Assembly (NCBI GenBank): GCA_902793995.1
Contig: CADBFP010000013.1
Location: 1 to 48,476, forward strand
Direction of reading: 5' to 3'
DNA: 48,476 nt
Origin: an uncultured Lachnospiraceae bacterium
GTDB lineage: Bacteria; Bacillota; Clostridia; Lachnospirales; Lachnospiraceae
Part shown: one piece after another, positions 8,515 to 35,681 of the stretch
How the letters are laid out: the number at the start of each line of letters is the position of its first letter
How positions within the stretch are numbered: the stretch's first letter is position 1
Notes under the pieces: generated by a model
What the model saw: only the letters and a program-made list of their open reading frames with translations
What the model was told of the DNA's origin: nothing
Database searches by the model: none
Program-made: the position numbers and the translations under genes

Positions 8515-9957
8515 TTATTTTCTATGCAGATAACTGCTCAAGACCCCCTTGATCATATCCAGCGCTTTTACTTTCAGCAGCCGGGCGCCGGCCAGATACA
8601 GGCCTATCCCCAGGGGAATCTGAATCAGCAGAGTAGGCAGATCCTTCAGCCCCAGCAGCTGCACCGCCATCACCGCGCCCCCCATCCCCAGGGATAGAAG
8701 GATGTGGGGCAGCATATCCCTCAGCTGTTCTCCGTAATGGTAATCCAGCAGCTTCCGGTTGGGCCAGGAATTGATCAGCTGGGACAACACGGAATTGAAA
8801 ATAGAGCCCAGAGCCATGGCCAGCACGCTGATGCGGACCGTAATCAGCAAGGTAGTAATCCCCACGATTTTCTTCAGGATTTCCAGCTTCAGAAACAGGT
8901 CGCTGCGCCCCAGAGCCTTGATGGCGTTCAGATTCGCCGTATGCACACAATAAAAGGCATACACGAAGCAGAAAATCTGCATAAAGGGCACCGCCGGACT
9001 CCACTGTTCCTTGAGAAGAAGCCGCACCAGGGGATGGGCGCAGGCCGCCAATCCCGCCATCATGGGCATAATCACAAAGGAGCTGACCTGAATGGCCTTC
9101 CGGGTGGTGGCTTTCACCATCTCCCGGTTTTCCTGCTCGGCGGACATCACCGGCAGCAGCACGCTGTTGGTGGCGTCGTTGATATTGGTCACCAGCAGAT
9201 TGGGGAAGGTATCCCCCTTATTGTAAAAGGCCAGATCCGTTTCGCTGTAGCGGACCCCGATCACCATCTGGTACAGTTTTCCGTAAACCGTATCAATCAA
9301 GGTGGAGGCCAGCAGCTTCCAGGCATAGGAAAAGAGTCCTTTCAGTCTTTCAAAGGAAAACATCCGCTTGGGCCGCCATTTAACGGTCAGCCACAAAATG
9401 ATGGTATCAATGCAGGTATTCACCAGATTCTGCACAATGAGAGCCCAGACGCCATAACCGTTTAAGGCCATCCAGATCCCCACTACCGCCGCAATCAGGG
9501 TTCCCCCCAGGGTGGCGTAAAAGAATCGTTTGAAAATCAGATGCCGGGCCACATAAGCGGTCTGGATATTCTTAATGCCCCCGAAAATCAAAATCAGGGA
9601 AAGTCCCCGGATGGGCCAGATCAGTTCCGGATTGTCATACAGGCGGGCAATGAGAGGCGCCGTCAGGAACAACAGGGTGTAAAGCCCCAGGCACATCACC
9701 ATATTAAAGTAAAATACCGTGGAGAAATCCAGATCGTCCGCATCCTTTTTCTGCACCAGGGCATCATTTAAGCCGCAGGTCACAAAGACATTGACGATGG
9801 TGGTAAACACGGTGACGATGGCCACCAGACCGTAAACTTCCGGTCCCAAAATACGCCCCAGTACAATGGATACAATAAAACCCACCCCCTGGGCGCCGAA
9901 GCGTTCCATGAAACGCCAGAGAAAATTGGAGGAAACCGTTCTGCCGTCATGCGCCAT
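8515..9957 (-). CDS. Polysaccharide flippase (Wzx/WzxC-like, MOP superfamily)
   Basis: 480 aa, about 12-14 hydrophobic segments. The N-terminus (NFLWRFMERFGAQGVGFIVSIVLGRILGPEVYG) is typical of the polysaccharide-synthesis branch of the MATE/MOP superfamily, which moves lipid-linked oligosaccharide units across the membrane. The start overlaps the 3' end of the GT2 gene by 11 nt, so the two are translated together. It is the only flippase in the cluster and no polymerase is visible in the window, so the exported unit may be short or polymerised elsewhere. Confidence 0.88.
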   Translation of the reverse strand: MAHDGRTVSSNFLWRFMERFGAQGVGFIVSIVLGRILGPEVYGLVAIVTVFTTIVNVFVTCGLNDALVQKKDADDLDFSTVFYFNMVMCLGLYTLLFLTAPLIARLYDNPELIWPIRGLSLILIFGGIKNIQTAYVARHLIFKRFFYATLGGTLIAAVVGIWMALNGYGVWALIVQNLVNTCIDTIILWLTVKWRPKRMFSFERLKGLFSYAWKLLASTLIDTVYGKLYQMVIGVRYSETDLAFYNKGDTFPNLLVTNINDATNSVLLPVMSAEQENREMVKATTRKAIQVSSFVIMPMMAGLAACAHPLVRLLLKEQWSPAVPFMQIFCFVYAFYCVHTANLNAIKALGRSDLFLKLEILKKIVGITTLLITVRISVLAMALGSIFNSVLSQLINSWPNRKLLDYHYGEQLRDMLPHILLSLGMGGAVMAVQLLGLKDLPTLLIQIPLGIGLYLAGARLLKVKALDMIKGVLSSYLHRK

Positions 9958-10939
9958 GGGTTTTCCCTCCCAGCTGTTTCAGCTTTGCCAAAAACGGAAA
10001 GACTTTTTTCAGAGCGGCGCGGCGCTGCTGCTTCCGATAGGCCCGGTACAGGGGCCGGAGCATTTCATCCCGGGCCGCTTCCCGGAGCCGTCCTCTTTCC
10101 TGCAAAAGCGCGAAACGGTACTCCGCCAGATTCTGCCGGCGGAAATCTTTGGCTTTTTCGATTTCCGCATGGAAGCGGCCTTCATAATGGGCGTCCACCC
10201 GGTTTAACATGTCCGTCATCACTGTCTCATGCTCCAGACGGGCCTTTTCATCCTGCCAGATATCCGCCGTCCAGGAGCCCTGAACCCCTTCGTTGTGCAC
10301 ACACATGGGAGCCGAAAGATAACGGCATTTTCCCAAAACAGATGCATAAAGCAGCCAGGGATAATCTCCCACCCCGGAAACGAAAAAGGCCTCGGGCAAA
10401 GTCTCTCCCACTTCCCGGCGCATCAAAAAGGAATTGGTGGCAAAAAGCCCGGCCCCCCGCACCATCAATTCTTCCCGCTCAAAATCCCGGTCCGACTCCT
10501 CCGCCGGATACAGGAAATCTTCCTCCTGAACCCTGCCTTCCCGGTGGAGCAGGGCCCGGTGGACGCAGATGCTGTAATCCGGATGGGCCTCTAAAAAATC
10601 CGCCTGCCGCTGCAGCTTATCCGGATCCGTGAACTGATCGTCCCCGTCGCAGATGGCGAAGTATTTCCCCCGGGCTTTGGGGTAGAGGAAGGTTTTCATG
10701 ATGGGGGTATCGGGTTTGGAATACTGGTTTTCCTTTTGGTAAATGGGTTTGATTATCTCGGGATAACGGCTTTCAAACTCCCGGATAACAGCAGCGGTGC
10801 CGTCGGTGGAGGCATCGTCATGCACAATCACCTCAAAGGGGAAGTCCGTTTTCTGCATCACAAAACCTTCCAGCGTCTGCCGGATGTAGGCTTCATGATT
10901 ATAGGCTAAACATAAAACGGAAACCAAAGGGGTCATCAT
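9947..10939 (-). CDS. Glycosyltransferase family 2
   Basis: 330 aa. A GT-A fold starts at the N-terminus (LVSVLCLAYNHEAYIRQTL), with the nucleotide-sugar motif DDASTDGT at about residues 42-49 and a DGDD metal site at about 97-100. There is no membrane segment. The basic C-terminal tail (YRKQQRRAALKKVFP) may attach to the membrane. Two ATGs at 10939 and 10936 are possible; I kept the first. It lies 6 nt behind the DegT stop and overlaps the flippase, so it belongs to the same transcript and likely adds a sugar to a lipid-linked glycan. Donor and acceptor unknown. Confidence 0.88.
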   Translation of the reverse strand: MMTPLVSVLCLAYNHEAYIRQTLEGFVMQKTDFPFEVIVHDDASTDGTAAVIREFESRYPEIIKPIYQKENQYSKPDTPIMKTFLYPKARGKYFAICDGDDQFTDPDKLQRQADFLEAHPDYSICVHRALLHREGRVQEEDFLYPAEESDRDFEREELMVRGAGLFATNSFLMRREVGETLPEAFFVSGVGDYPWLLYASVLGKCRYLSAPMCVHNEGVQGSWTADIWQDEKARLEHETVMTDMLNRVDAHYEGRFHAEIEKAKDFRRQNLAEYRFALLQERGRLREAARDEMLRPLYRAYRKQQRRAALKKVFPFLAKLKQLGGKTHGA

Positions 10940-10945
10940 ACACTC

Positions 10946-12046
10946 TTATTTCAGGATGATATCGCAAATCCGGTCCACATCCTCCGGCGCCAGATCCGCA
11001 TACAGGGGCAGGGTCAGCACCCGGTCCGCCACATGGGCGGCCAAGGGGGTTTTATCCTTTCCACCGGTGGGCAGGGAGCGGTAGCATTCGCTGTCATTGG
11101 TTAAAGGGTAAAAATATTTCCGGGGCACGATATCCTGGAACGCCAGGCGGTCAAAGACTTCGTCCCGGCTGTATTTATATCCGTCAAAAACCACGGGATA
11201 ATAGGCATGATTGGGGCTTACTCCGGGCTGGGTCCCCGCCAGGATAATGCCCTCCCGTCCCGCCAGGCGGGCGTTGTACTGTTCCACCACCCGGCCCCGC
11301 TTTTGGATTTCTTCCTCCAGCTGCCGCAGGTTGCAGAGTCCCATAGCCGCCTGGAACTCGCTCATTTTTGCATTGCCTCCGATATAGGCCACTTCTTCCG
11401 GCCCCCGGATGCCAAAGTTTTTCAAATCGTTCAGGAGCTGCACCAGGGAGTCCTCCCGATAGGCCAGGGCGCCCCCTTCTATGGTGTGGAACACTTTGGT
11501 GGCATGGAAGCTGTACATGGCCATGTCTCCGAAGCAGGCGCTGCTGACTCCCTCCTTCGTCACGCCGAAGGCGTGAGCAGCATCATAAAAAATCGGCAGC
11601 TTATACGCCTTACCCAGAGCCTCAAAGGCTTCCACATCGCAAAGCCTGCCATATACATGCACCGGCAGAATGGCAACTGTTTTCTCCGTAATCAGAGCCT
11701 TGACTTTCTCCGGATCCAGGGTATAGTCCTCCGGCTTGATATCCGCAAATACCGGCACCAGCCCGTTGCGGCTGATGGCATGGGTGGTGGAAACGAAGGT
11801 ATAAGGGGTGGTAATCACTTCCCCGCCCTTGGGCAAGTGCAAAGCCGCCAGGGCAGTCTCCAGAGCCAGATGGCCGTTAGTAAAAAGGGTCACATGAGGA
11901 ATGCCCAAATAGGCCTCAAGGGCCTCTTCCAGGGCCTGATGCTTATCTCCCATATTGGTCAGCCAGCGGGAGTCCCATAGCCCTTGTATTTCCCGGCAGA
12001 ATTCCTCAAAATCCGGCAAGGATGAACGAGTTACATTAATCCGCAT
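10946..12046 (-). CDS. DegT/DnrJ/EryC1/StrS family sugar aminotransferase
   Basis: 366 aa, the usual length. The PLP lysine is K184 in SFHATKVFH, followed by EGGAL, and FYDAAHAFG supplies the PLP-ring contact. The N-terminal SRWLTNMGDKHQALEEAL fits enzymes that put an amino group on keto-sugar nucleotides (VioA/FdtB-like). The gene implies an amino-sugar in the exported glycan. No sugar nucleotidyltransferase or dehydratase is nearby, so its keto-sugar substrate must be made elsewhere or by the SDR upstream. A ribosome site AGGAGG lies 6 nt upstream, followed upstream by a MITE-like repeat. Confidence 0.9.
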   Translation of the reverse strand: MRINVTRSSLPDFEEFCREIQGLWDSRWLTNMGDKHQALEEALEAYLGIPHVTLFTNGHLALETALAALHLPKGGEVITTPYTFVSTTHAISRNGLVPVFADIKPEDYTLDPEKVKALITEKTVAILPVHVYGRLCDVEAFEALGKAYKLPIFYDAAHAFGVTKEGVSSACFGDMAMYSFHATKVFHTIEGGALAYREDSLVQLLNDLKNFGIRGPEEVAYIGGNAKMSEFQAAMGLCNLRQLEEEIQKRGRVVEQYNARLAGREGIILAGTQPGVSPNHAYYPVVFDGYKYSRDEVFDRLAFQDIVPRKYFYPLTNDSECYRSLPTGGKDKTPLAAHVADRVLTLPLYADLAPEDVDRICDIILK

Positions 12047-12132: not shown

Positions 12133-12903
12133 CTATATATATTCCCCTCCCGTAATCCGGAGCACGCTGCCGGTCATCATGGCAGAGGCATCGGACATTA
12201 AATACACCAGGGCTTCCAGATAATCGCTCCGTTCCAGCATGCGGCCCATAGGCAGAATCTCTCCGGCCCGGCGGCGCAGCTGGGCCTCGCTTTCTCCCTG
12301 GCTTTTCCGCAAAGCCACTTCCCCCTCCGTAGGGGTCCAGCCCAGGGTCAGATAATTGCAGCGGATCTGATCCGATGCATAATGATGGGCAATATGCTCC
12401 ATCAAAACCCGCAGCACGCCCTTGGAGCAGGCATAGGCCGCCCGGTCCTTCTGGCCTCCCCAGGCATGGGCGGAGCCGGTAAAGACAATGGAGCCGCCCC
12501 CCTGGGCCTGCATGGGCCCCAGAGCCTCCTGCACGCAGAAGAAAGCCGCCTTGAAATTGATATCCATCACCCGGTCAAAGGTTTCCTCGTCGCAGCTGTC
12601 CAGGGGCGAAACCGGGGTAATGCCCGCATAAATAAACAGACCGTCTATCCGGCCGAAGCGGGTCAGGGTCTCCCGGATCAGCTTCCGGCAGTCTTCCACC
12701 TTTTCCAGATCCGTATGGACAAAATGGCCTTCGCTGCCATAGGTTTCCATCAGGCGGAGGGAGCGGTGGGCCGCCTCTTCATCCCGGCCGCCGATCACCA
12801 CCCGGGCCCCCCGGCGGGCGAATTCCTCCGCCGCCGCCCGGCCCACGCCTTTGGTGCCGCCGGAAACCGCTATCACTTTTCCCTTTAGTTCTTTTTCCGT
12901 CAT
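12133..12903 (-). CDS. SDR family oxidoreductase
   Basis: 256 aa. The cofactor motif is SGGTKGVG (14-21). The catalytic set is S144, Y157 and K161 (YACSK). RGARVVIGGRDEE, with a basic residue after the second strand, suggests NADP(H). The protein resembles classical FabG-like SDRs and not the extended sugar epimerase type. Its start overlaps the ATP-grasp stop by 4 nt. In this context it probably reduces or oxidises an intermediate attached to the glycan or its building block; substrate unknown. Confidence 0.88.
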   Translation of the reverse strand: MTEKELKGKVIAVSGGTKGVGRAAAEEFARRGARVVIGGRDEEAAHRSLRLMETYGSEGHFVHTDLEKVEDCRKLIRETLTRFGRIDGLFIYAGITPVSPLDSCDEETFDRVMDINFKAAFFCVQEALGPMQAQGGGSIVFTGSAHAWGGQKDRAAYACSKGVLRVLMEHIAHHYASDQIRCNYLTLGWTPTEGEVALRKSQGESEAQLRRRAGEILPMGRMLERSDYLEALVYLMSDASAMMTGSVLRITGGEYI

Positions 12904-14189
12904 GCCAGCTCCAGCGCCTTGTCCGCGTCAAAGGCCTTTAACACCATGTTCCGGCCTTCCGTATCATAAACCTTTACGGCCGCCCCGTATTCCTTTAGGG
13001 CCGCCGCCAGTTCCTCCTTCGAATCGCAAAGCAGATACAGGCGGGTCAGCACCTGTTTCTCCGTGCCTACCCACTCCGGCAGCACCCGGTCCCCTTCGTG
13101 AAGCCGCTCGATATTGGCCACCACCCGGGGATCCTCCTGGGCCTTTTCCAGGCCTTCTATCCGGGCAATCTCCCCTTCCTTCAGCAGGAACCACTGGGTA
13201 GCCGCCCATTTTCCCCGGAAAGTGGGATCGTCTTCTTTGGCCAGATCCACCGTCCCTTCGCTGCCGGTCAGCGCATAGCGGATCAGCATCTCCCGCTGAT
13301 CGAAGCCATGGGCGGCCTTCATCAGCAGATGAGGCGCCTCTCCCTGGAGGCGGAAGCCTGTGTCATATACATAAAACTCTCCGTCTTCATAAAAGGCGGA
13401 CAGCATCAGCACCCCGTTCGCGATGCCGATGGCCTTAAAGAGCCGCAAAGCATTTTGGTGCATGCGCTCGTAATACTCGTTGATATGTTTGGAGGGATAA
13501 GTGCCTCCCAGGCAGACCCGGGACAGTCCCGGCTGCTCGTCTGTGGTGTAGCGGTCGTAAATGCAGGAAGCGCTGGCCACCCCGTCTTTGAAGGTGTAAT
13601 ACAGCCCCATATCCTCGCATTGCATATAGCGTTCCACAATGAAGCGCCCGGCCCGGGAAGCCTCCAGGGCTTTTTCCACCGCCGCCGGTATTTCCGCTTC
13701 CGAAAAGCAGACCGTCATGCCCATGCCGCTGTAGGAATCCACGGGTTTTACCATTACCGGGTATTGGATCTTGTCCAGATCCTCCCGGCGCAGCTGCGCA
13801 TCCAGATAATACTCCGGCACCCCATGGACGCCGTAGCGTTCGCAGGTAGCTTTAAATACATCCTTATAAGAGAACACATCCACGATTTCCTGGCTGGCAT
13901 AGCAATACAAACCCAGGGCATCGCAGACCTTGCAGTAGGCCGGCACCAGAATGTCCGCCACCCCCACCAGGACGCCGTCCACCTCTTCCTCCCGGGCCAG
14001 GGCCACCAGCCCCGGCACATCCAGCCCGTCCACCTCGCAGGCTTTCCAGGCATAGGCCTTGGCTGCATCCTCCGGGCGGTTGCTGGTCACCAGGGTTTTT
14101 ACCCCCAACTCATTTGCCAGCTGCACCAGGGGAATGGTTTCCGGGTTGGCCCCCAGAATCAACAGTTTTTTGCCGGATAAATCACTCAT
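12900..14189 (-). CDS. ATP-grasp domain ligase
   Basis: 429 aa. The N-terminus (KKLLILGANPETIPLVQLANELG) is a pre-ATP-grasp Rossmann domain, as in PurK and CarB-like proteins. The ATP-grasp core follows: YPVMVKPVDSYSGMGM holds the ATP-binding Lys and Gly-rich loop, FIVERYM the second strand, and FYVYDTGFRLQG the metal-binding end. Such enzymes join a carboxylate to an amine or thiol through an acyl-phosphate. It overlaps the SDR and MBL genes by 4 nt on each side. It may attach an amino acid or small acid to the amino-sugar made by the DegT enzyme. This is inference from neighbours. Confidence 0.85.
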   Translation of the reverse strand: MSDLSGKKLLILGANPETIPLVQLANELGVKTLVTSNRPEDAAKAYAWKACEVDGLDVPGLVALAREEEVDGVLVGVADILVPAYCKVCDALGLYCYASQEIVDVFSYKDVFKATCERYGVHGVPEYYLDAQLRREDLDKIQYPVMVKPVDSYSGMGMTVCFSEAEIPAAVEKALEASRAGRFIVERYMQCEDMGLYYTFKDGVASASCIYDRYTTDEQPGLSRVCLGGTYPSKHINEYYERMHQNALRLFKAIGIANGVLMLSAFYEDGEFYVYDTGFRLQGEAPHLLMKAAHGFDQREMLIRYALTGSEGTVDLAKEDDPTFRGKWAATQWFLLKEGEIARIEGLEKAQEDPRVVANIERLHEGDRVLPEWVGTEKQVLTRLYLLCDSKEELAAALKEYGAAVKVYDTEGRNMVLKAFDADKALELA

Positions 14190-14947
14190 AATGCATATTC
14201 CTCCCCCGGATACATAAACAAAAAGGCCTGCTCCGGATATTCTTTCGTCATCAATTCATAAAACAGATCCGCCCGTCCTCCGTGGGAGGCAAACATGCCG
14301 AAATGGCAGGGAATCAGCAGGCGAGGTTTTAACAGATCCGCCAGAGCGGCGCAGTCCCGGTAATCCAAATTGCCGTAGGCGCCGTTGATAGGGGCCGCCA
14401 GAAGGTCCAGGGGACCGTCTGAGAGATACTCCTCCCGAAAGTCCCGCCGCAGGCAGGTATCCCCCGTAAAGAGAAGCCGCCGTCCCTCCGTCTCCACCAG
14501 CACTCCCACCGCCAGGGGCGCCCCCTTTCCGTGGTCGCAGGAGACAAAATGCAGGGAAAAACCGGCACATTCCACCCGCCTGCCCGGAGCGATATAGCGG
14601 ACGCAGCCCGCATCCAGGCCGTTTTCCGCCACCAGTTCCTCACAATCCCGGGGAGCAAAAAGGAGGGTTTCCTTTTTCATCAGGGCGGGCATGGCGTCTT
14701 TGTCGTAATGATCCTGATGATGATGGGTGGCGATAATCACATCCGCCGGCATGGCCGATGGATCCGCCGGTGGCGCCGCCAGCCGCTTATACCCCTCGTG
14801 TCCCTCCAGGGTCCGCACGCAATCGCTGAAATAGGGGTCGATCAGCAGCCATTTTCCCCGGCTGTTTTGTATGGCAAAGCCCGCCTGGCCTAAAAAGAAC
14901 AGGCGGGACTTTGGATTTGGTGCGGAGCTTAATACGTCCCGCAGCAT
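14186..14947 (-). CDS. MBL-fold metallo-hydrolase (UlaG-like)
   Basis: 253 aa. The metal motif HHHQDH (75-80) is preceded by the UlaG-like start (LFFLGQAGFAIQ, LLIDPYFSDC). FTGDTC and PCHFGMF supply further ligands. UlaG is a lactonase acting on L-ascorbate-6-phosphate; other members act on varied phosphodiesters or esters. It is the first gene of a four-gene set with 4-nt overlaps to the ATP-grasp gene, which in turn overlaps the SDR gene. A hydrolase of a lactone or ester intermediate would suit the cluster. Ribosome site GAGAGG. Confidence 0.87.
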   Translation of the reverse strand: MLRDVLSSAPNPKSRLFFLGQAGFAIQNSRGKWLLIDPYFSDCVRTLEGHEGYKRLAAPPADPSAMPADVIIATHHHQDHYDKDAMPALMKKETLLFAPRDCEELVAENGLDAGCVRYIAPGRRVECAGFSLHFVSCDHGKGAPLAVGVLVETEGRRLLFTGDTCLRRDFREEYLSDGPLDLLAAPINGAYGNLDYRDCAALADLLKPRLLIPCHFGMFASHGGRADLFYELMTKEYPEQAFLFMYPGEEYAL

Positions 14948-14974: not shown

Positions 14975-15418
14975 TTATTCGGTAGGCACATCGGAAGTAC
15001 AGTGAGGGCAGCGTACCGCATCCAGCGGAATCTCGCTCTTGCAGAAGGGGCAGGTCTTGGTGGTAGGCGCCGCTTCCTCCTCTTTCTGCATCTTGTTGAT
15101 GCCTTTGACGATCATAAACACAATCAGAGCCAGAATCAGGAAGGTGATGATGGCGGCAATAAAGGCGCCGAACTTAATGGCGACTTCTTCCGCAATCACT
15201 TCCCCGGCGGGGCTTAACTCCGCCTGCTTCAGCACGATCTTCAGGCTCTCTTCCAGACTGTTGACGCCGGGAATCAAGGCCAGCAGCGGGTTCACGATAT
15301 TGCCGGTAAAGGCCGTGACCAGAGCCGTAAAGGCACCGCCGATGATAACGCCGATGGCCATATGAACCATATTGCCCTTTACGGCGAACTCCTTGAATTC
15401 CTGCATGAACTTCTTCAT
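14975..15418 (-). CDS. mscL: Large-conductance mechanosensitive channel MscL with zinc-ribbon tail
   Basis: 147 aa. The start at 15418 has AAGGAGG 7 nt upstream; the open frame extends 15 codons further but without such a site. EFKEFAVKGNMVHMAIGVIIGGAF is the N-terminal helix and pore-lining TM1 of MscL. TM2 is at about residues 82-105. Instead of ending in a short charged helix, the protein continues to a zinc ribbon with CPFC and CPHC pairs near the C-terminus. MscL releases solutes during hypo-osmotic shock. The tail probably lies in the cytoplasm below the pore. The gene follows the HisC-like gene by 65 nt on the same strand. Confidence 0.92.
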   Translation of the reverse strand: MKKFMQEFKEFAVKGNMVHMAIGVIIGGAFTALVTAFTGNIVNPLLALIPGVNSLEESLKIVLKQAELSPAGEVIAEEVAIKFGAFIAAIITFLILALIVFMIVKGINKMQKEEEAAPTTKTCPFCKSEIPLDAVRCPHCTSDVPTE

Positions 15419-15483
15419 ACTGTTATCCTCCTTATCCTTTGCGGCCATTTCCTTGAGCCGCAAGTCTTTTCATCATACACCCA

Positions 15484-16593
15484 TCAGGAGAGAAATGCAA
15501 GGGATGCGGTTTCAATTACCCGCTCCATCTGGGATTTTTCCCCTATGGTGACCCGAAGGCAGCCTTCCAGGGAAGGGCTCTGGCGCACATCCCGCACAAA
15601 GATATTGGCCGCCTCCCACTGCCGCTTCAGCACCTCTTTTATCTCCGGAGTACGGCAGCGCAGCAGCACGAAGTTCCCCCGGCTGGGGAAAGCCTTCAGA
15701 TACGCCCCCAGGGGGCCCTGATTGATGGTCTCGATAAAATAGCTCCGGGCCTCCTGCACCTTCGCCGCATACTGCCGCATATAAGCGGCGTCCTCCAGGG
15801 CGGCAGCTGCCGCCACCTGAGTAAAGGTATTGATATTTTTGGGATTGCGGATTTTGGACACGGCTTCGATATTGGCCCGGGAGGCCAGAAGGTAGCCGAA
15901 GCGCAAATTCGCCAGTCCGAAGGCCTTGGAGAGGGTGCGGGTAATCAGGAGATTGTCCCGATCCCGCACCAGGGCATCCGCGCTTTCCTCCGCAAACTCG
16001 CCGTAGGCCTCATCCACCACAAAACAGCTGTCCGGGAAGTCCGCCAGCAGGGCGGCGATCCGATCCGCGGGAATCAAAGTTCCCGTAGGATTATTGGGGT
16101 TGCAGATATAGACCAGCCGGGGCTTCACCGCCTCCAGGCGGCGGCGGAAATCCGTTTCATCGAAGGCAAAGTCCTCCCCTAATTCCGCATAATACAGCCT
16201 TGCCCCGGTGGATTCCGCCGTAAGGCGGAAATTGTCGTAGGAGGGCCAAAGAATCAGCACCCTGTCTCCCGCCGTGAGATAGGCCCGGGCCAAGTATTCG
16301 TGCAAATCGTCGGAGCCGCCGAAGTATTGGATATTCTCCTCCGGCAGGCCCGTGTACTGAGCCAGCCGGGCCATCAGCTCTTCATTGAAGGTGGAGGGAT
16401 ACAGGCGGAACACATCCTCCTGCTCCATCAGCTCCGTCAGCAGCTGCTTCACCAGAGGCGAGGGGGGCACGGTGGCTTCGTTCCAGTCCAGTTTCAGAAT
16501 CCGGCTCCGCTCTTCGGGGGCCACTGCCCAGATTTTATGGGAGGCCACGGTATAGGGCTTGATGGTATCTAAGGTCTCATTCCAGGCTTTCAT
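15484..16593 (-). CDS. HisC-like PLP-dependent aminotransferase or decarboxylase
   Basis: 369 aa, fold type I. The PLP lysine is K223 in RTLSKAFGLANLRFG; CNPNNPTG (164-171) and DEAYGEF (194-200) bind the cofactor. The C-terminal LRVTIGEKSQMERV is very HisC-like. The HisC family also includes CobD, which decarboxylates phosphothreonine. There are no his genes nearby. The start overlaps the cytidylyltransferase stop by 4 nt, so the two are translationally coupled, and a LicD gene lies just upstream of both. I infer that the enzyme makes or modifies an amino-alcohol phosphate for the cytidylyltransferase. Plain histidinol-phosphate transamination is the default alternative. Confidence 0.85.
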   Translation of the reverse strand: MKAWNETLDTIKPYTVASHKIWAVAPEERSRILKLDWNEATVPPSPLVKQLLTELMEQEDVFRLYPSTFNEELMARLAQYTGLPEENIQYFGGSDDLHEYLARAYLTAGDRVLILWPSYDNFRLTAESTGARLYYAELGEDFAFDETDFRRRLEAVKPRLVYICNPNNPTGTLIPADRIAALLADFPDSCFVVDEAYGEFAEESADALVRDRDNLLITRTLSKAFGLANLRFGYLLASRANIEAVSKIRNPKNINTFTQVAAAAALEDAAYMRQYAAKVQEARSYFIETINQGPLGAYLKAFPSRGNFVLLRCRTPEIKEVLKRQWEAANIFVRDVRQSPSLEGCLRVTIGEKSQMERVIETASLAFLS

Positions 16594-17498
16594 GCTTCAC
16601 CTCCGTAGTTTTCGTAAGAAGGATCCAGCGCTTTCAGCTCGCTGAAGGTATCGATTTCCTGGATATCCTCCGCCAGGCAGGGTCTGATGGCCACCCGGTA
16701 CTTTTCTTTCAGCACTGCCATGGGCACCTGCTCCCAGTAATACTCCTTGCCCCCGGGCATTTCCGCCACCGCCGGCAGGTCCTCCGCCAGCTTTTTCCCG
16801 TCTTCTTCGCTCCAATAGGAAATGCCGATCACCTGGTAGCAGTCCAGGCCTCCTCTTCTTTCCTCCAGTATATAGCCGTTTTTCACTGGGAAGCACCAAT
16901 CGTCGGTGCGGGCGGTATAAATGCCCAGGAAGTTGGATTCGTAATGATAAGGAGCAATCAGGGCCGGCTTGTGCAGCAGCAGGTCCGCATCAAAAATATA
17001 GGCATTGGACAACAGATCCTTCACGCACAGGGCGGAGAGGATATTATTGGCCTCCGCATAGCCCGGATTTTCCACGAAACGGATCATGGGATATTTGTCC
17101 AGCAGCTGATCGAAGGCCTCCGCCTTATAGCCCCGGACAATCACAATATCCCGGATGCCCGCCGCCAGCACCGCATCCAAAAGGCCGTCTATCAGCCGTT
17201 TGCCCTTCACGGAAATCAGCGGTTTGGGAATATCCAGGGTCACAGGGGCCAGCCGGGAGCCGAAACCGGCAGCAATGAAAACCGCCCGGCGCACCCGGTA
17301 GGGTTCCAGGGCGGCGAGGCCTTCCGAGCTGATGCCCATCTCCCCCATTAAATGCCGCTCTAAAAGCTCTCGCACCACCTTATTGACGGTGCCCAGGGAA
17401 AGACCGCTGCGGAGGGAGAGCTGCCGCTGGGAAACGGGTCCCTTCTCCGCTGCCAGCAAAGATAAGATTTGGAATTCTTTTTTATTGATAGTGTTCAT
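16590..17498 (-). CDS. HTH-domain CTP:phosphocholine/phosphoethanolamine cytidylyltransferase (LicC-like fusion)
   Basis: 302 aa from the ATG at 17498. An upstream GTG at 17540 is rejected because it lies inside the promoter. Residues 7-52 (EFQILSLLAAEKG, VSQRQLSLRSGLSLGTVNKVV) form a winged helix-turn-helix. Residues 71-302 are a nucleotidyltransferase: AAGFGSRLAP (76-85), PKPLI (91-95), a GYKAEAF segment, YAEANNI and FDADLLL match pneumococcal LicC closely as I recall it. The C-terminal EIDTFSELKALD is also LicC-like. LicC makes CDP-choline for teichoic acid decoration; phosphoethanolamine is an equally possible substrate. The DNA-binding domain suggests self-regulation or substrate sensing. 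It is coupled to the HisC-like gene by ATGA. Confidence 0.85.
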   Translation of the reverse strand: MNTINKKEFQILSLLAAEKGPVSQRQLSLRSGLSLGTVNKVVRELLERHLMGEMGISSEGLAALEPYRVRRAVFIAAGFGSRLAPVTLDIPKPLISVKGKRLIDGLLDAVLAAGIRDIVIVRGYKAEAFDQLLDKYPMIRFVENPGYAEANNILSALCVKDLLSNAYIFDADLLLHKPALIAPYHYESNFLGIYTARTDDWCFPVKNGYILEERRGGLDCYQVIGISYWSEEDGKKLAEDLPAVAEMPGGKEYYWEQVPMAVLKEKYRVAIRPCLAEDIQEIDTFSELKALDPSYENYGGEA

Positions 17499-17530
17499 AA
17501 AACCCCCAAAGGCATGTTCAGTTGAAAGCA

Positions 17531-17559
17531 ATCTTAGCACTTCTATGAACGCATGTCAA
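17531..17559 (-). promoter_or_regulatory. Promoter of the HTH-LicC operon
   Basis: Perfect -35 TTGACA (17554-17559), 17-nt spacer, TAAGAT (17531-17536). It fixes the start codon at 17498 and leaves a leader of about 25-30 nt. GTTCA and TGAAC half-sites lie on both sides of the -10 box, a possible operator. Confidence 0.7.
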
Positions 17560-17565
17560 GGGGGT

Positions 17566-17585
17566 TTGGGATGAGGCAGCAGGAA
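17566..17585 (-). repeat. CCTA-type repeat behind licD
   Basis: On the minus strand the stretch directly behind the LicD stop reads CCTAATTCCTGCTGCCTC, similar to the repeats at 5311-5352 and 7974-8012. Confidence 0.4.
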
Positions 17586-18491
17586 TTAGGGGTTCGGCAG
17601 CAGGGTAGCATAGGGCTTATCCGGATCAAAGATGAATTCCTGATGGCCGCTGTCCCGCTTCTCCAAAGGCGGCAACTGCATATAATCTCCATACTCCCGG
17701 GTCAGGAAATCATGATAACCTTTGGGAATAGGCAGGCGGAATCCTTCGAAGGGGACTTCTATCCTTTCAGCCACATCTTCCTTGGGGAAATAATTGCTGT
17801 GATACGCATCCACCGTAATCACCGCATGGGAAATAAAGTCTGTCTCCCGCCCCTCAAAGCTGCGGGCCAGGCGCTGGATTTCCTGATAATTCTCATAGGG
17901 ATCCCGGCCGGACCAGGCTTCCGCCCGTTTTTGTTCCGCTTCCGTCATATGGGGGTTGGAGCGCCGCATATAAGAGGAATTGTCCCGGTTCAGCTCCATT
18001 ACCTTTTCATAAAGGGGCAGCCCCTCCTCCGGTACCCAGGGATCCAGGGGGAAAATATCGATCATCATGCCGTGATTCATGGGCTGATAAGCGAAACTGG
18101 GAGTGCAGGCGGTGGTGCGGCTGTTCCGCAATTTGGCATAGCTGTAAAAATACCCTTTGTCCGTATCCGGGGTCTGGAGGAAATAAGGCGCCTCAAACCA
18201 TTCCGGGTGGGCCAGCAGGATTTCATAATCCGCCCGGAACATGGCAATATCCATATCGTCGTCCCAGGGGATAAAGCCTTGATGGCGCACGGCGCCGATC
18301 ATGGATCCTCCCACCAGGAAAAAGCCCAGGCCATGGGCCCGGCAGACCCGTTTTAATTCCATAGCCAGATCCAGCTCCACCAACCAAAGCTTTTTCCGCC
18401 AGCTTTCCACCGCATAGCCGCTGCGGATTTCCTCCCGGAACCATTCTTGATCCAGCTTATATTTTTTCAGTAATCGCGTGCTTTCTTTCAT
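17586..18491 (-). CDS. LicD family phosphotransferase
   Basis: 301 aa. GGSMIGAVRHQGF (61-73) and WDDDMDIAM (76-84) are the nucleotidyltransferase-fold signature of LicD, with the Asp residues binding metal. LicD moves phosphocholine (or a similar head group) from the CDP-activated form onto teichoic acid or polysaccharide sugars. The gene lies just upstream of the LicC-like and HisC-like pair but has no overlap with it, since a strong promoter lies between. Ribosome site GGAG; it follows the CPBP gene by 8 nt. The visible partner for substrate supply is the HTH-LicC protein next door. Confidence 0.9.
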   Translation of the reverse strand: MKESTRLLKKYKLDQEWFREEIRSGYAVESWRKKLWLVELDLAMELKRVCRAHGLGFFLVGGSMIGAVRHQGFIPWDDDMDIAMFRADYEILLAHPEWFEAPYFLQTPDTDKGYFYSYAKLRNSRTTACTPSFAYQPMNHGMMIDIFPLDPWVPEEGLPLYEKVMELNRDNSSYMRRSNPHMTEAEQKRAEAWSGRDPYENYQEIQRLARSFEGRETDFISHAVITVDAYHSNYFPKEDVAERIEVPFEGFRLPIPKGYHDFLTREYGDYMQLPPLEKRDSGHQEFIFDPDKPYATLLPNP

Positions 18492-30389: not shown

Positions 30390-33300
30390 TCAGTACCTGC
30401 TCATTGCGGTCTTAATGATGCTTTCAATCATCAAGTCCATTTTCTCCACTTGCAGATTTATGCCAAACTCATCGCAGAAATCCCATAGTAGATCTTCGAC
30501 TGCCTGGTTCATCTTTTTATGAATAGGGATGCTTGTTCTCCAGTCAACCCGAGCAAGAGCCTGAACTTCTTGCTTAATATTCAGGGCCAGATTCCCCAGT
30601 CCTTCTTCGTAGTCAAGAGTTTCTTCACCCTGCTGCTTAAGAACATCGCTGAAAGCGCCGTAGAACGCTTTTGCATCGCTGTCATTCATAATAGCAGAGG
30701 GATATGAGTGCCCGGTAAAGCCCTGCCGCAGATCCTCTGCCATTTTTCTCATGCTTTCCAGATACAAGTTCTCATCACGAAACTGGCGATATGCTGCAAT
30801 TGTCTCTCGAATCCGTTCGGAAAAACGCTTGTATAGTAAGGGATCCTCGTATCTGCGAGACTCCAGTTCCGATACAATTCGCGTGTGGATATAGGCAGCT
30901 TTTGCTTTCTGACCTTCCACCTCTTCAAGCTGTTTATCCATGGCCGCCTTGTCATGAAGAGCAATCGGCTCCACAACCATTTCAACCGGTTCAGACGTGA
31001 CAAAGGTATTCAGCAGGTTTCGGATTCCGTCTTCGTATTTGCTGAAATCGACCTTCTCCGCAAAGACCATCATCAACGCCGAGCGCAGTTTCTGGAAGAA
31101 AAGAAGATCTGCCTTGTATTTTTGCATTTCTTCAAATCCGATACTCTGATAAAGCGAATAGTCCGCCATAGCAAGACTCATCATTTTTGAGAATGCTGCA
31201 AGTTTTTCATAGAACTCTTTGCGAAGCTTTTCGTTTTCTTCCGAGTCTTCTTTATCGAAAAAAGCGACCCAGGCACGGGGGTTGTTTTGATCGAAGGTCG
31301 TCTCGCCAAAAAAACCCCAAAGAGCGGTGTGCGCTAGCTTTAGCTTTTCTTTTCCCTCGGCAGCGGTCTCAAGTGCTCCCGCAATATCCGTCGGATCAAA
31401 ACCGGAGAAGCCGGATTCATCATCGCTGTACATCTCAAGGGCACAATTCAGATTTCCAAAAAGCCCCCAATAGTCAACGATTAAACCAAAATCCTTGCCT
31501 GCTGCAATTCGATTTACACGGGCAATGGCTTGGAGAAGTGTATGTTCTTTCATTGGCTTGTCAACGTACAGCACCCCGAGAGATGGTGCGTCAAAGCCGG
31601 TCAACAGCATACTTTGCACGATGACAATATCAACATCTTCGCCGCCGATGATATTGTTCTTTACATACTCTTCGTAGTCGTCATATTTGCTTCCGAAGCG
31701 AGGCTCAACCTCGCTCTTAAAGAAGTCGCGGATAATGGCTTTGTCGCTGCTGGTTACACCTCCTTCATCACCTTCGGAGGAGACGGACTCGTCACAGATT
31801 AACGCCGCGGCATGAACACCGCCGATTCCGTTGATAGCCCGCTCCAACTTCACCGCTGTAGCTCGCGTGGAAACCGCGGCCATAGCCTTGAAACCGCGTG
31901 GCTGGCAATAGCTGAGGAAGTGCTCGTGGATGTCAAAAGCAATCATGGACAGCCTCTGCTCCGTTTGCGAGAGTTTCATGAAGGTGCTCCACTTTTTGCG
32001 CATATCTTCTTTTTGCGGCTCCGTCAACGGTGCAAGAATACCTTTCAGATAGTCGTCAATCCGGTCGCTGCTGACTTTCTGTGGGATGACCCGTCCGTCA
32101 TAGACCAGCGGGACGATCACGCCATCACGAATGCCGTCTTCAAAGCGATATGAGTTCCCGATGCGCTGGCCGAACTTCAAATAGGTGTTTGTTTGATCCT
32201 TTTTGAGAAGCGGCGTCCCCGTGAAACCGATCTTGAACGCATTCGGCAGGACGTCGTTCATCATATTGTGGAATTCTCCGGTGTGGGAGCGGTGACTCTC
32301 GTCAATTAGAAGAAAGATATTCTCATCCGGGATTCTTGTCCGAGATTTTGCCGCCGTCTCAAACTTGTTGATTGTAGTGGCAATGATGGTATTTCCTTGA
32401 TCTTTCAACAAACTGACCAAGCCGCGGCCGGTAGTTGCCTCTGCCGGGTCCATCCCCGTATGGACGAAGTTGTCCCGGAGCTGTTTAATCAGGTTCAGCC
32501 GGTCACAGACCAGTACAAAGCGAGGATTCTTGATCTTCTCGTCTGCGAGGATCCGCTTGACCAGCATGACCATGGTCAGAGATTTGCCGCTGCCCTGCGT
32601 ATGCCAGATGACGCCGCCGCGGTTCATGCAGCCATCCTCGCCGTGAATCCTACGCATGGTGTTTTCCACGCCGAAGAACTGCTGATAGCGGGCAATCTTT
32701 TTTACTCCGCTGTCATAGAGTATGAAGAAGCGCACGAGATTCAGTAGCCGCTGCTTGGACAGCATGGAGACAATCACCTTGTCCTGTTCGGTGATATGCC
32801 CGTCGTCTACATACCGTTTTGCCGCGTCTTCCTGCCACTGCACGTTTTCCTCGTGCCATCTGCAGTAGAATTCCTTCGATGTTCCGGCCGTGCCGTATTT
32901 CACCGTTTCCGGGTTCATTGCCATTACAAGCTGCGTAAACTTGAAAAGCCGGGGAATATAGTCCGGCTTCCAGTTGCGGACGTTCTGCTTGACGCCTTCT
33001 TCCACATCCACGCTGGACTTTTTGCACTCGATCACCACAAGCGGGATACCGTTTACGAAAAGCACAATATCCGGGCGGGCATATTTGCCGTTGGTGCGTT
33101 CCACAGAAAACTCGTCCGTCACCTGCCAGATATTGTTTTCCGGGTGCTCCCAATCGATGTAGGAAATATCAAAGGACTGCATGTTGCCGTCGTAAAGATG
33201 GACGTCACAGCTCTTTCCGTAAATCAGCCTGTCATAGATCACCTTGCTGGCAAACATCAGCCCGCGGTCGAGCTGAACATCCAGCTCGCGGATTGCATCG

Positions 33301-33521
33301 CCGATGGCCTCATCGGGAAACGGGGTCTGCTTGCCGCGATAGATAAACGACTGCGATGCGAGAAACTCCCGCATGACATCCGGAAAAAGTACATGCGAAA
33401 GATGGCCGCGCTTCTGCTCGGCCTCTGCACGCGGAATATACTGGTACCCCATCGCCTGTAATTCTTTCAGGGCTCTGTCCTGCGACTCCGGGCGCTCATT
33501 GAAAATCAAATGATTTGGCAT
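30390..33521 (-). CDS. hsdR: Type I restriction enzyme HsdR (motor and endonuclease subunit)
   Basis: 1043 aa. The nuclease core RPDIVLF...VVIECKKS (PD-ExK fold) lies near residue 150-170. The translocase has Walker A TQGSGKSLTM (about 308-317), DEAH-box IDESHRS, and the helicase motif IARVNRI. It cuts DNA after translocation when the site bound by HsdM and HsdS is unmodified. No frameshift or lost motif is visible, so it should be active. The small DUF2188 and beta-flower genes lie between it and the HsdS gene. The gene is in the same operon direction as hsdM and hsdS. Confidence 0.97.
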   Translation of the reverse strand: MPNHLIFNERPESQDRALKELQAMGYQYIPRAEAEQKRGHLSHVLFPDVMREFLASQSFIYRGKQTPFPDEAIGDAIRELDVQLDRGLMFASKVIYDRLIYGKSCDVHLYDGNMQSFDISYIDWEHPENNIWQVTDEFSVERTNGKYARPDIVLFVNGIPLVVIECKKSSVDVEEGVKQNVRNWKPDYIPRLFKFTQLVMAMNPETVKYGTAGTSKEFYCRWHEENVQWQEDAAKRYVDDGHITEQDKVIVSMLSKQRLLNLVRFFILYDSGVKKIARYQQFFGVENTMRRIHGEDGCMNRGGVIWHTQGSGKSLTMVMLVKRILADEKIKNPRFVLVCDRLNLIKQLRDNFVHTGMDPAEATTGRGLVSLLKDQGNTIIATTINKFETAAKSRTRIPDENIFLLIDESHRSHTGEFHNMMNDVLPNAFKIGFTGTPLLKKDQTNTYLKFGQRIGNSYRFEDGIRDGVIVPLVYDGRVIPQKVSSDRIDDYLKGILAPLTEPQKEDMRKKWSTFMKLSQTEQRLSMIAFDIHEHFLSYCQPRGFKAMAAVSTRATAVKLERAINGIGGVHAAALICDESVSSEGDEGGVTSSDKAIIRDFFKSEVEPRFGSKYDDYEEYVKNNIIGGEDVDIVIVQSMLLTGFDAPSLGVLYVDKPMKEHTLLQAIARVNRIAAGKDFGLIVDYWGLFGNLNCALEMYSDDESGFSGFDPTDIAGALETAAEGKEKLKLAHTALWGFFGETTFDQNNPRAWVAFFDKEDSEENEKLRKEFYEKLAAFSKMMSLAMADYSLYQSIGFEEMQKYKADLLFFQKLRSALMMVFAEKVDFSKYEDGIRNLLNTFVTSEPVEMVVEPIALHDKAAMDKQLEEVEGQKAKAAYIHTRIVSELESRRYEDPLLYKRFSERIRETIAAYRQFRDENLYLESMRKMAEDLRQGFTGHSYPSAIMNDSDAKAFYGAFSDVLKQQGEETLDYEEGLGNLALNIKQEVQALARVDWRTSIPIHKKMNQAVEDLLWDFCDEFGINLQVEKMDLMIESIIKTAMSRY

Positions 33522-33594
33522 GATGCTCTCCTCCGGTTTGAATAAGTAAGAGGCACAGCGGGGCTGTTTAAAGACCCCGCCGGCCTGATGTTTG

Positions 33595-33828
33595 TTATTT
33601 TCTGTCCTTCGGCGGACAAGGGTCGTTTCCGTGACTGTCCGGGCGTTGGATTACTCCGTCCCTACGGTGCGGGATCAGCTCGGTTCCCTGGTTGATACTC
33701 ATTCTGCGCCCTGCCTCCATGGCCTCTTTTTTGGTGTCGTAGTGGCCACTGACTCGCTTGGCGTTTTCGCGTTTGACGTCCCACCCTCCATTCGGGTTAG
33801 GGACAACATGATGTTCTTTTCTTGACAT
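33595..33828 (-). CDS. DUF2188 domain protein
   Basis: 77 aa. HHVVPNPNGGWDVKRENAKR (a beta hairpin) and SGHYDTKKEAMEAGRRMS (helix) match the DUF2188 fold, which occurs as a single small domain in many genomes and has no assigned function. The tail is charged (DGVIQRPDSHGNDPCPP). The ATG at 33828 follows AAAGGTAAGCGGAA. The gene lies 73 nt before hsdR. Adjacency to a nuclease suggests a regulatory or anti-phage accessory, but this is inference. Confidence 0.75.
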   Translation of the reverse strand: MSRKEHHVVPNPNGGWDVKRENAKRVSGHYDTKKEAMEAGRRMSINQGTELIPHRRDGVIQRPDSHGNDPCPPKDRK

Positions 33829-33844
33829 TTCCGCTTACCTTTCT

Positions 33845-33881
33845 CTTGACGATTGTCAAGCCGGCGTGCTAAACTTAGCAC
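33845..33881. repeat. Two adjacent inverted repeats before the DUF2188 gene
   Basis: CTTGAC-GATT-GTCAAG (33845-33860) and GTGCTAA-AC-TTAGCAC (33866-33881) lie 5 nt apart. Both are perfect. They sit just upstream of the DUF2188 start and could be operator sites or RNA hairpins. No T tract follows, so they are not typical terminators. Confidence 0.6.
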
Positions 33882-33945
33882 ATAAATTTGTGGATGCTTT
33901 CCCGTCTGCTTATTTGATCGAATGCTTGGACTGTTGCCGCAGTTT

Positions 33946-33972
33946 AAGCGTTCTTTTTTTGCGCCATCATAG
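33946..33972 (-). CDS. Possible 8-codon leader peptide
   Basis: An ATG ATG frame (about 33972) reads MMAQKKNA and stops. It is preceded by a textbook ribosome site AAAGGAGGT 7 nt upstream, better than that of the DUF2188 gene 120 nt downstream. It may be a leader peptide for hsdR-side expression or a remnant. Two inverted repeats follow it. Confidence 0.35.
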
Positions 33973-33999
33973 GCCCCACCTCCTTTGCACTGCAAATCA

Positions 34000-34356
34000 T
34001 TACTGAGCGAAAAACTGCGTCCCGGATAAAGGCGACCATGAAAGGCTATTCACTGCTCGAAGATGCTTTATCTCTCTAATGCTCTTAATAGGTTTGAGTT
34101 GCTTGAGACTTTTGAGCGGGCGAAGCTCTTTCAACGGCTTCAGCGGGCCAGAACCAGAGGCATTTTCTGAGAAGAATACGCAAGCGCCATTCAAATCTCG
34201 AACCCATCCTTTATCAAACCACCCGAGATGCTTGCCGTTAAACCCATAAACTGCGTTCTCCACAAAATAGGCGACTGCTTCGCCTGTGAACAGATAAACG
34301 TGGATCTCATCTTCTGAATACGCTATCGGCTTTCCATTGAGGTCATAAAACGTCAT
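34000..34356 (-). CDS. 4-fold beta-flower protein
   Basis: 118 aa from the ATG at 34356 (AGGAGG 8 nt upstream); the longer frame lacks this site. The N-terminal half has four short beta units, each with an aromatic and G pattern: FYDLNGKPIAY, HVYLFTGEAVAY, AVYGFNGKHLGWF, GWVRDLNGACVFF. The C-terminal half is a run of four-residue repeats (LKPLKELRPLKSLKQLKPIK), positively charged, ending SLSWSPLSG. This matches the 4-fold beta flower family. Function unknown. Within the operon it lies between hsdS and DUF2188. Confidence 0.8.
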   Translation of the reverse strand: MTFYDLNGKPIAYSEDEIHVYLFTGEAVAYFVENAVYGFNGKHLGWFDKGWVRDLNGACVFFSENASGSGPLKPLKELRPLKSLKQLKPIKSIREIKHLRAVNSLSWSPLSGTQFFAQ

Positions 34357-34428
34357 TGCTTTCACCTCCTTTCTTTTTAGGTCGAATGATCTGCTGCTAC
34401 ACAAATGTGTTCCGCAACAGGCAAGCTC

Positions 34429-35637
34429 TTAATTGGATACACGTACCAGCCCAGTCAGCAAAAGCTGCATCAGGGATTTTTTCTTTTGCTGTGCAGCCTC
34501 CAACTCACGCTGATGAAGGGTGATAAGGTTATCGAGATATTCAAAGCATTCTCCGATTTTGGATTGTTCTTCATGATTTGCGGTGAAGACAACATCTCTA
34601 TCGGCAAGAATAGAATAGTACCTCTTATATCCTTCTGATTGAGGTTTGTTCTTTTCCAGGAGCGGAAGCAAATACTTTCCGTCCATATTCTCAAAGCCTT
34701 TTACGATACGAACGCCGTCAGTTGCCACAAAAAACGGGGTTTTCGGCTTATATAACGATAAAGTATGGTCGCCAAAAATAACTGTATTCTCATAGTCTTT
34801 GCAGGGTTCTCCATCAGCATATCCAATAATAGGTTCATTGCCCTGTTGGATTATTTCATATCTTCCGTTTTGTTCAGGCACCTTCAAATAAGGCTTAAAA
34901 GGCAAGGGCTGTAGAATATCCCCCAGCTTACGCTGTTCCCAAGGGCCAGTGAATCTAGGGAATCTCGCCTCTGGCACGTCGGAACCCTTGCGAGGAAACA
35001 TTTTCGTCAAGCAGGTCTTTTTCAGATTTTGCAGTTCCTCCACAAATTTCTGCTTTAGTTCGATTTCTCTGTCACAGGTTGATAGGATTTCGGCGATTTT
35101 CTGCTGTTCGGCGATAGTGGGGACCGGCATGCGGATATTAGAGAAATTCTCGAAGAAAAGGTATTCACGGACGCTCCCTTCAAGATTGCGAAGGGTCTCC
35201 TTTTTGAAGTCCGGTGTTTTGGTCCAGCAATCGAAAAAGGCGCCGTCAAGTTTGTTGCTCGTTTTAACACACACATAAAGAGAACTGACAGCTGCCTCCT
35301 CAGCATCTCGAAGTCGTCCTATCGAACCTACGTTTACTCTTGCGGGGTTGTATGCGAATTCCCCGCGCTTTACGATTTTGTAAGCAGACTTGTCCAGCCC
35401 CTGGTAGCTTCCCTCTTCAAACTGTTCGCTCTGGGGGACAAATCCATTTCGGTTGTTTACCGAATATACCGGCCGCTCTTTTCCGTCTCGATTTGGTCTT
35501 GAAGTGCATTCAGACAGATTCCCGAGGCGTTCCACGCCCCAGTCTTCCGGAATAATATAGGGGCCGCTTTTTCTATACCCCTCCGGCACCTCGCCTCGGC
35601 GCACAGCCTCAATCCGTTTTCTGATTTCGTCTCTCAT
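34429..35637 (-). CDS. hsdS: Type I specificity subunit HsdS (two target-recognition domains)
   Basis: 402 aa, normal length. Two TRDs (about 30-175 and 235-355) are each followed by a conserved helical region: IAEQQKIAEILSTCDREI after the first, and EEQSKIGECFEYLDNLI after the second. PGxWxxRKLGDIL-like starts (IPEDWGVERLGNLSE, GPWEQRKLGDIL) open both TRDs. HsdS reads the bipartite DNA site for HsdM and HsdR. The gene is more AT-rich than hsdM, suggesting domain replacement. A second, half-size HsdS is encoded upstream of hsdM. Confidence 0.95.
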   Translation of the reverse strand: MRDEIRKRIEAVRRGEVPEGYRKSGPYIIPEDWGVERLGNLSECTSRPNRDGKERPVYSVNNRNGFVPQSEQFEEGSYQGLDKSAYKIVKRGEFAYNPARVNVGSIGRLRDAEEAAVSSLYVCVKTSNKLDGAFFDCWTKTPDFKKETLRNLEGSVREYLFFENFSNIRMPVPTIAEQQKIAEILSTCDREIELKQKFVEELQNLKKTCLTKMFPRKGSDVPEARFPRFTGPWEQRKLGDILQPLPFKPYLKVPEQNGRYEIIQQGNEPIIGYADGEPCKDYENTVIFGDHTLSLYKPKTPFFVATDGVRIVKGFENMDGKYLLPLLEKNKPQSEGYKRYYSILADRDVVFTANHEEQSKIGECFEYLDNLITLHQRELEAAQQKKKSLMQLLLTGLVRVSN

Positions 35638-35681
35638 ACGCTCACCTAGATCTCTGGAAATTGATTCTCACAAAGCCCCTA

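Follow-up and report, generated by a model that had tools for sequence, protein, structure and literature searches.

A HisC-like PLP enzyme encoded with LicC- and LicD-type proteins: a probable choline-independent source of activated amino-alcohol for surface sugars in a Lachnospiraceae bacterium

The gene trio and the conservation of its linkage

The stretch of DNA analysed here (the window, 48,476 nucleotides) is contig C13 (CADBFP010000013.1) of genome G000, an uncultured Lachnospiraceae bacterium (assembly GCA_902793995.1; 2.17 Mb, rated 93% complete) whose closest named relatives among those found are Lachnospiraceae metagenome-assembled genomes (MAGs), two labelled as goat omasum and one as water-buffalo rumen. 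Three genes on its minus strand are transcribed in the order LicD family phosphotransferase, LicC-like cytidylyltransferase with a helix-turn-helix (HTH) domain, and HisC-like pyridoxal 5'-phosphate (PLP) enzyme, and the probable role of this trio is to supply an activated amino-alcohol for surface sugars with no need for choline. A preliminary description of this DNA had recognised the three genes, and their identities were confirmed by matches to PF04991, to HTH_24 plus NTP_transferase and to PF00155, respectively (Table 1). The stop codon of the LicC-like gene and the start codon of the PLP gene share the bases ATGA, a four-base overlap with GGAGG upstream, and the term 'translationally coupled' used in that description thus fits the pair.

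A search of named genome contigs, using the window PLP protein and its homologue from genome G250 as queries, returned 10 loci. Four of them are close relatives (L053, L054, L055 and L062; 76-77% identity), in all of which the order LicC, PLP enzyme, MscL-like channel and metallo-beta-lactamase gene is preserved and the LicC and PLP genes overlap as GTGA, indicating that the linkage of the two genes is not due to chance. Conservation continues as far as the flippase gene in the three close relatives whose contigs are long enough (the L055 contig is 3.9 kb long). The LicD gene lies directly upstream in L053 and L054 and some 4 kb farther upstream in L062; the L055 contig includes no more than the end of it. 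The linkage also occurs in two Bacteroidales loci: in L056 the PLP gene is followed by a LicC-like gene, and in L057, a MAG, it is directly followed by a gene encoding a LicC::LicD fusion (L057:3025-4689).

In L058, L059, L060 and L061, a TupA-like ATP-grasp gene is followed by a HAD phosphatase gene and then by the PLP gene, and all four clusters carry, upstream, a gene for a fusion of LicC to a CobD-like PLP enzyme (605-631 amino acids; L046:12295-14121, L058:151-1977, L060:3152-5047 and L061:3350-5167). L059, L015 and L046 are one contig, as their shared length (336038) and identical neighbours show. An octopine-dehydrogenase-like gene adjoins the fusion gene in L059/L046, L060 and L061 and lies downstream instead in L058. 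The fusion, dehydrogenase, HAD and ATP-grasp proteins were assigned with Pfam on the L046/L015 contig, and their counterparts in L058, L060 and L061 were identified from BLAST similarity or visually. Within the fusions, the PLP part groups with the structure 6oux, and these proteins are candidates for one-protein synthesis of cytidine diphosphate (CDP)-ethanolamine from phosphoserine. These four clusters hold both a member of the window enzyme's subfamily and a fusion. A second enzyme leading to one and the same product would be superfluous, and different products are therefore probable for the two PLP enzymes; should the fusion produce CDP-ethanolamine in these clusters, the subfamily member probably yields another compound.

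Three candidate genes (L056:6706-8004, L058:5834-7147 and L061:1132-3294) were scanned for, and matched, PF04464, the CDP-glycerol glycerophosphotransferase family. The PF04464 gene adjoins the PLP gene in L056, where the two overlap, and in L058; in L061 it is located a short distance upstream of the gene for the fusion.

The window enzyme has few close relatives. At a threshold of 1e-40, 43 of 295 genomes of the order gave a match, and just two of these were close, the genome of the window itself and a second one (49% identity), with the rest at 29-38%. Among 398 genomes drawn from the phylum, the window's own genome was the sole match at 1e-75. Plasmids searched at 1e-40 gave no match, and no relative was found on viral contigs.

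Substrate-site residues and the genomic background

The PLP enzyme scored about 264 bits against the HisC model TIGR01141, under the curated cut-off of 276.55 (its L056 homologue reached 275.5 bits), and 166.6 bits against the CobD model TIGR01140, under the curated cut-off of 290.55. When the family profile was compared with solved structures, the best HisC scored 182.6 bits, and the decarboxylase-named 3fkd, 6oux and 1lc5 scored 103.7, 89.9 and 69.0 bits, respectively. Lys223, which carries PLP, and the phosphate-binding Arg334 and Arg347 are present in 11/11 family members, and the HisC residues Tyr14, Glu39 and Asp95 are kept in all 11 as well as in the 27 HisC-like rows used for comparison. 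The latter set was obtained after leaving out L020, which has a stop in frame, and the four rows viewed in context (L016, L017, L018 and L019) all lie among his genes, as read by eye; among the 30 CobD-like rows, 19 reach the curated cut-off.

The residues at positions 121 and 252 distinguish the family. This pocket pair is Asn/Lys in 11/11 family members and Met/Tyr in 25 of the 27 HisC-like rows, the other two having Leu/Tyr and Met/Phe. The pair Glu121/Trp252 occurs in 30/30 CobD-like rows, in 4/4 fusions and in 1lc5, and in 0/11 family members; 6oux carries Ser/Trp. Position 119 does not separate the classes, since Phe occupies it in 18/30 CobD-like and 27/27 HisC-like rows. Tyr261* and Met129 form part of the lining of the substrate pocket in mycobacterial HisC (PMC4703992), and by our own residue mapping these correspond to Lys252 and Asn121 of the window enzyme. 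At residues 121 and 252, the comparison of active sites with CobD and HisC, which the preliminary description had put forward as a check, matched the enzyme to neither class.

The first phylogenetic tree included 18 of the 27 HisC-like and 16 of the 30 CobD-like rows, and two later ones included 12 and 14, respectively. The PLP family fell outside the group of CobD and 6oux, with a support of 100 for the separating branch. In the unrooted tree of 12 HisC-like and 14 CobD-like rows, the family and HisC lay on one side of a branch with a support of 100, and a clade of the family with CobD and the fusions, as a sister placement, was allowed by the approximately unbiased test (p-AU 0.425). When five outgroup rows were added, they did not stay on one side, one of them had a branch length of 8.67 and the bootstrap was unsettled; this tree neither established nor ruled against a single clade of the family with HisC (p-AU 0.397). 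With all rows except the three references, the support for HisC-like was 75. As judged from these comparisons, the PLP enzyme is a separate, rare subfamily that scores nearer HisC than CobD, and it looks more like a transaminase of that subfamily than like a decarboxylase. The suggestion that it is a CobD-like decarboxylase is not supported by its scores (166.6 versus 264 bits), by the missing Glu121/Trp252 or by its position outside the CobD/6oux group; in relatives that do have a decarboxylase-type partner for LicC, this partner is another protein and forms a fusion with LicC.

The best solved relative of the LicC-like protein is 1jyk, pneumococcal LicC. On alignment to it, the nucleotidyl-transfer motif of LicC is present, as are the metal-site acids (D, D and E at pneumococcal-numbered positions 105, 107 and 216), and Trp136, Tyr190 and Asp105 of the pneumococcal enzyme are retained. 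In Tde-PntC, Glu104 and Glu196 lie close to the primary amine; their counterparts in pneumococcal LicC are Asp105 and Asp192 (PMC6697681). Positions 105/192 are Asp/Glu in the window protein, its four close relatives, L056 and L057, and Glu/Glu in the fusions. For comparison, 30 loci with a choline kinase were collected, and a LicC-like match was found in 20. Asp/Glu was seen in 0/20 of these proteins, Asp/Asp being the commonest pair (7). Position 192 alone does not settle the substrate, because it is Glu in nine of the 20 (Asp in nine, Ala in one and a gap in one).

No match to HisD or IGPD (HisB) was found in this 93% complete genome, although the Bacillus subtilis control also missed both; 13 of 14 controls gave a match, and HisD and IGPD may be missed by a first look. 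His_biosynth gave one match of 61 positions at 28.7 bits, above the family cut-off of 23.6. The organism may thus be a histidine auxotroph, subject to the same incompleteness and the same control. The preliminary description had also called for a separate hisC to be looked for; the genome was searched, and the next-best TIGR01141 match reached 98.4 bits compared with 263.6 for the window gene, so that no better hisC appeared. A search for phosphoenolpyruvate (PEP) mutase (PF13714) gave no match in the genome, and with HisD, HisB and PEP mutase all unmatched, histidine or phosphonate synthesis is unlikely. Ordinary HisC was rejected (no HisD or IGPD match, a TIGR01141 score under the cut-off and an Asn/Lys pocket), the enzyme probably not serving histidine synthesis, and phosphonate tailoring was rejected on the missing PEP mutase match. 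Cobalamin CobD was likewise rejected; the single TIGR01140 match in the genome at 1e-35 has an E-value of 5.5e-49, which fits the window protein itself.

The preliminary description had seen no choline kinase or uptake gene beside the trio, and this held. The only PF01633 (choline kinase) match in the genome at E <=0.001 is on contig C7, and no choline transporter was found among 20 window proteins scanned (10 proteins plus 10 more at 1e-10 only, a part of the open reading frames). The choline locus on C7 (L093:5925-9995; also L044) encodes an HTH-LicC::choline-kinase fusion of 592 amino acids, a LicC of 247 amino acids and a BCCT transporter, and a LicD gene is located on this contig about 12.6 kb away from the gene for the fusion. 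The two C7 LicC proteins share 30% and 34% identity with the window LicC, and the window LicD is 30.5% identical to that of C7. SerC is present in the genome.

A proposed amino-alcohol phosphate pathway and its alternatives

Considering these results, we propose the following scenario. The PLP enzyme would aminate a small keto-phosphate to a phospho-amino-alcohol, the likeliest reaction being that of dihydroxyacetone phosphate with glutamate to give serinol phosphate; LicC would join this product to cytidine monophosphate from cytidine triphosphate, giving a CDP-amino-alcohol; and LicD would move the amino-alcohol phosphate onto a glycan whose synthesis is directed by the adjacent genes, so that the phosphate would be retained as a phosphodiester. 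This role as a HisC-like transaminase, with serinol phosphate as the most likely product and Cj1437 of Campylobacter jejuni as its precedent, is our tentative choice, held at somewhat less than even confidence. It is based on the highest similarity being to HisC, the conserved linkage, the Bacteroidales PLP-LicC pairs, the missing HisD, IGPD and PEP mutase matches and the location of the choline locus elsewhere. The transamination, its product and the acceptor glycan are all inferred. For a HisC-like enzyme, the step from histidinol phosphate to dihydroxyacetone phosphate as substrate is a modest one. A full CDP-serinol pathway, in which serinol phosphate drawn straight from glycolysis becomes CDP-serinol and is passed by LicD or PF04464 transferases into serinol-phosphate decorations or a teichoic-acid-like polymer with free amines, is possible if somewhat unlikely; the PF04464 genes near the PLP and fusion genes would suit a glycerol-like amine.

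The trio represents a rare, conserved form of the Lic scheme that lacks its own choline kinase. As in Lic-1 (LicA/LicB/LicC/LicD), a LicC-type cytidylyltransferase and a LicD-type transferase lie in a surface glycan locus; unlike Lic-1, no kinase or uptake gene is seen there, the PLP gene overlaps that of LicC, and the kinase and BCCT transporter are on another contig. The Cj1435-Cj1438C system of Campylobacter jejuni, in which Cj1436 is presumably a PLP enzyme, is similar in its described activities: its enzymes produce either phosphoethanolamine or serinol phosphate, which is destined for a surface polysaccharide. Cj1437 converts dihydroxyacetone phosphate to (S)-serinol phosphate by transamination, Cj1436 converts phosphoserine to phosphoethanolamine by decarboxylation, Cj1438C couples either product to glucuronate, and Cj1435 strips the phosphate (PMC11800397, PMC12409886). 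The relatives' clusters likewise have HAD and ATP-grasp neighbours, and the four that combine a HAD phosphatase with an ATP-grasp protein and a pair of PLP enzymes resemble the C. jejuni scheme. In C. jejuni, however, an amide is made and the phosphate is taken off, whereas LicC and LicD of the window would retain it, and no HAD gene was found among the 20 window proteins scanned. PntC and PntC-AEPT also pair a LicC-like enzyme with a PLP transaminase, but the genome has no PEP mutase match and the window enzyme is a class I/II, HisC-like protein, whereas 6pd1 is titled aminotransferase class V. In the LicC::CobD-like fusions and FrbH, the latter reportedly a cytidylyltransferase tied to a PLP enzyme, the two activities are physically joined as well; in the fusions, the PLP portion resembles CobD and 6oux, whereas the window enzyme is separate and HisC-like.

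The route first suggested for this locus, decarboxylation of O-phosphoserine to phosphoethanolamine followed by formation of CDP-ethanolamine by LicC and transfer of phosphoethanolamine by LicD, is unlikely for the window enzyme and fits best with the fusions. A capsule-locus enzyme, Cj1436, is known to carry out this decarboxylation, SerC should make phosphoserine available, Lys252 could bind a carboxylate and thereby leaves phosphoserine alive as a substrate, and the Glu at the D192 position of LicC resembles that near the primary amine in Tde-PntC. The low CobD score, the absence of Glu121/Trp252, the separating branch and the four clusters that carry a fusion alongside the family member all argue against it. 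Of the original proposal, a single route through the PLP enzyme, LicC and LicD without its own choline kinase is supported, and the CobD-like phosphoserine decarboxylase is not. That residues 121 and 252 fit neither known class would also suit an enzyme whose substrate is some other phosphorylated compound, keto or amino, or the CDP-linked one after LicC, and which yields a different amine-bearing phosphodiester. FrbH cytidylylates L-2-amino-4-phosphonobutyrate, and in the order reported for FrbH decarboxylation comes after this step. The HAD neighbours in four clusters, however, point to the handling of a free phosphate monoester there, and this alternative is doubtful.

It is very unlikely that LicC and LicD form a second choline set fed with phosphocholine by the kinase on the other contig, with the PLP enzyme acting separately. 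That kinase exists, and LicC keeps the three pneumococcal residues Trp136, Tyr190 and Asp105, but the C7 choline locus has two LicC domains of its own and another LicD is on C7, the PLP-LicC overlap is conserved, and the Asp/Glu pair of the window LicC was seen in none of the 20 choline-kinase-locus proteins. A plain histidinol-phosphate aminotransferase placed beside LicC by accident would account for the near-cut-off TIGR01141 score and the lack of a better hisC; considering the unmatched HisD and IGPD, a pocket pair unlike that of all 27 HisC-like sequences and a LicC linkage kept in four of four close relatives and two Bacteroidales, this is extremely improbable.

The usual way of tracing zwitterionic decorations is via choline kinase, PEP mutase or phosphoethanolamine transferases. 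If a PLP enzyme supplies LicC, as in the transaminase scenario favoured here, such decorations could be built from central metabolites alone, and this route could be missed because the enzyme scores near the hisC model. Asn121/Lys252 together with an adjoining LicC would provide a simple handle for finding further cases. In the literature searched on CDP-serinol, CMP-phosphoserine, CDP-ethanolamine with LicD, FrbH, LicC together with phosphoserine or histidinol-phosphate aminotransferase, and serinol phosphodiesters, which mostly excluded subscription papers, nothing was recognised as this pathway.

Features of the window and neighbouring genes

Table 1. Positions of the trio and its neighbours in the window
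Feature	Position	Strand	Basis or remark
HisC-like PLP enzyme, 369 aa	15484..16593	-	PF00155, 181.8 bits
Key residues of the PLP enzyme			Catalytic Lys223, Arg334 and Arg347 kept; pocket Asn121 and Lys252
LicC-like cytidylyltransferase, 316 aa, N-terminal winged helix	16590..17540	-	HTH_24 and NTP_transferase
Winged helix-turn-helix domain of the LicC-like protein, residues 19-62	17355..17486	-	HTH_24, 3.8e-08
LicD family phosphotransferase, 301 aa	17586..18491	-	PF04991, 150.9 bits (cut-off 22.6)
MscL-like channel	14975..15463	-	Named by eye from translation
Metallo-beta-lactamase fold hydrolase (UlaG-like)	14186..14947	-	
ATP-grasp protein	12900..14189	-	
Short-chain dehydrogenase (SDR)	12133..12903	-	
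DegT-type aminotransferase	10946..12046	-	
Family 2 glycosyltransferase	9947..10939	-	
Wzx-like polysaccharide flippase	8515..9957	-	

The MscL-like gene is an instance of a mechanosensitive channel gene within a polysaccharide operon, and its position is kept in all four close relatives. Elsewhere in the window, type I restriction-modification genes for HsdR, HsdS and HsdM lie at 30390-38104.

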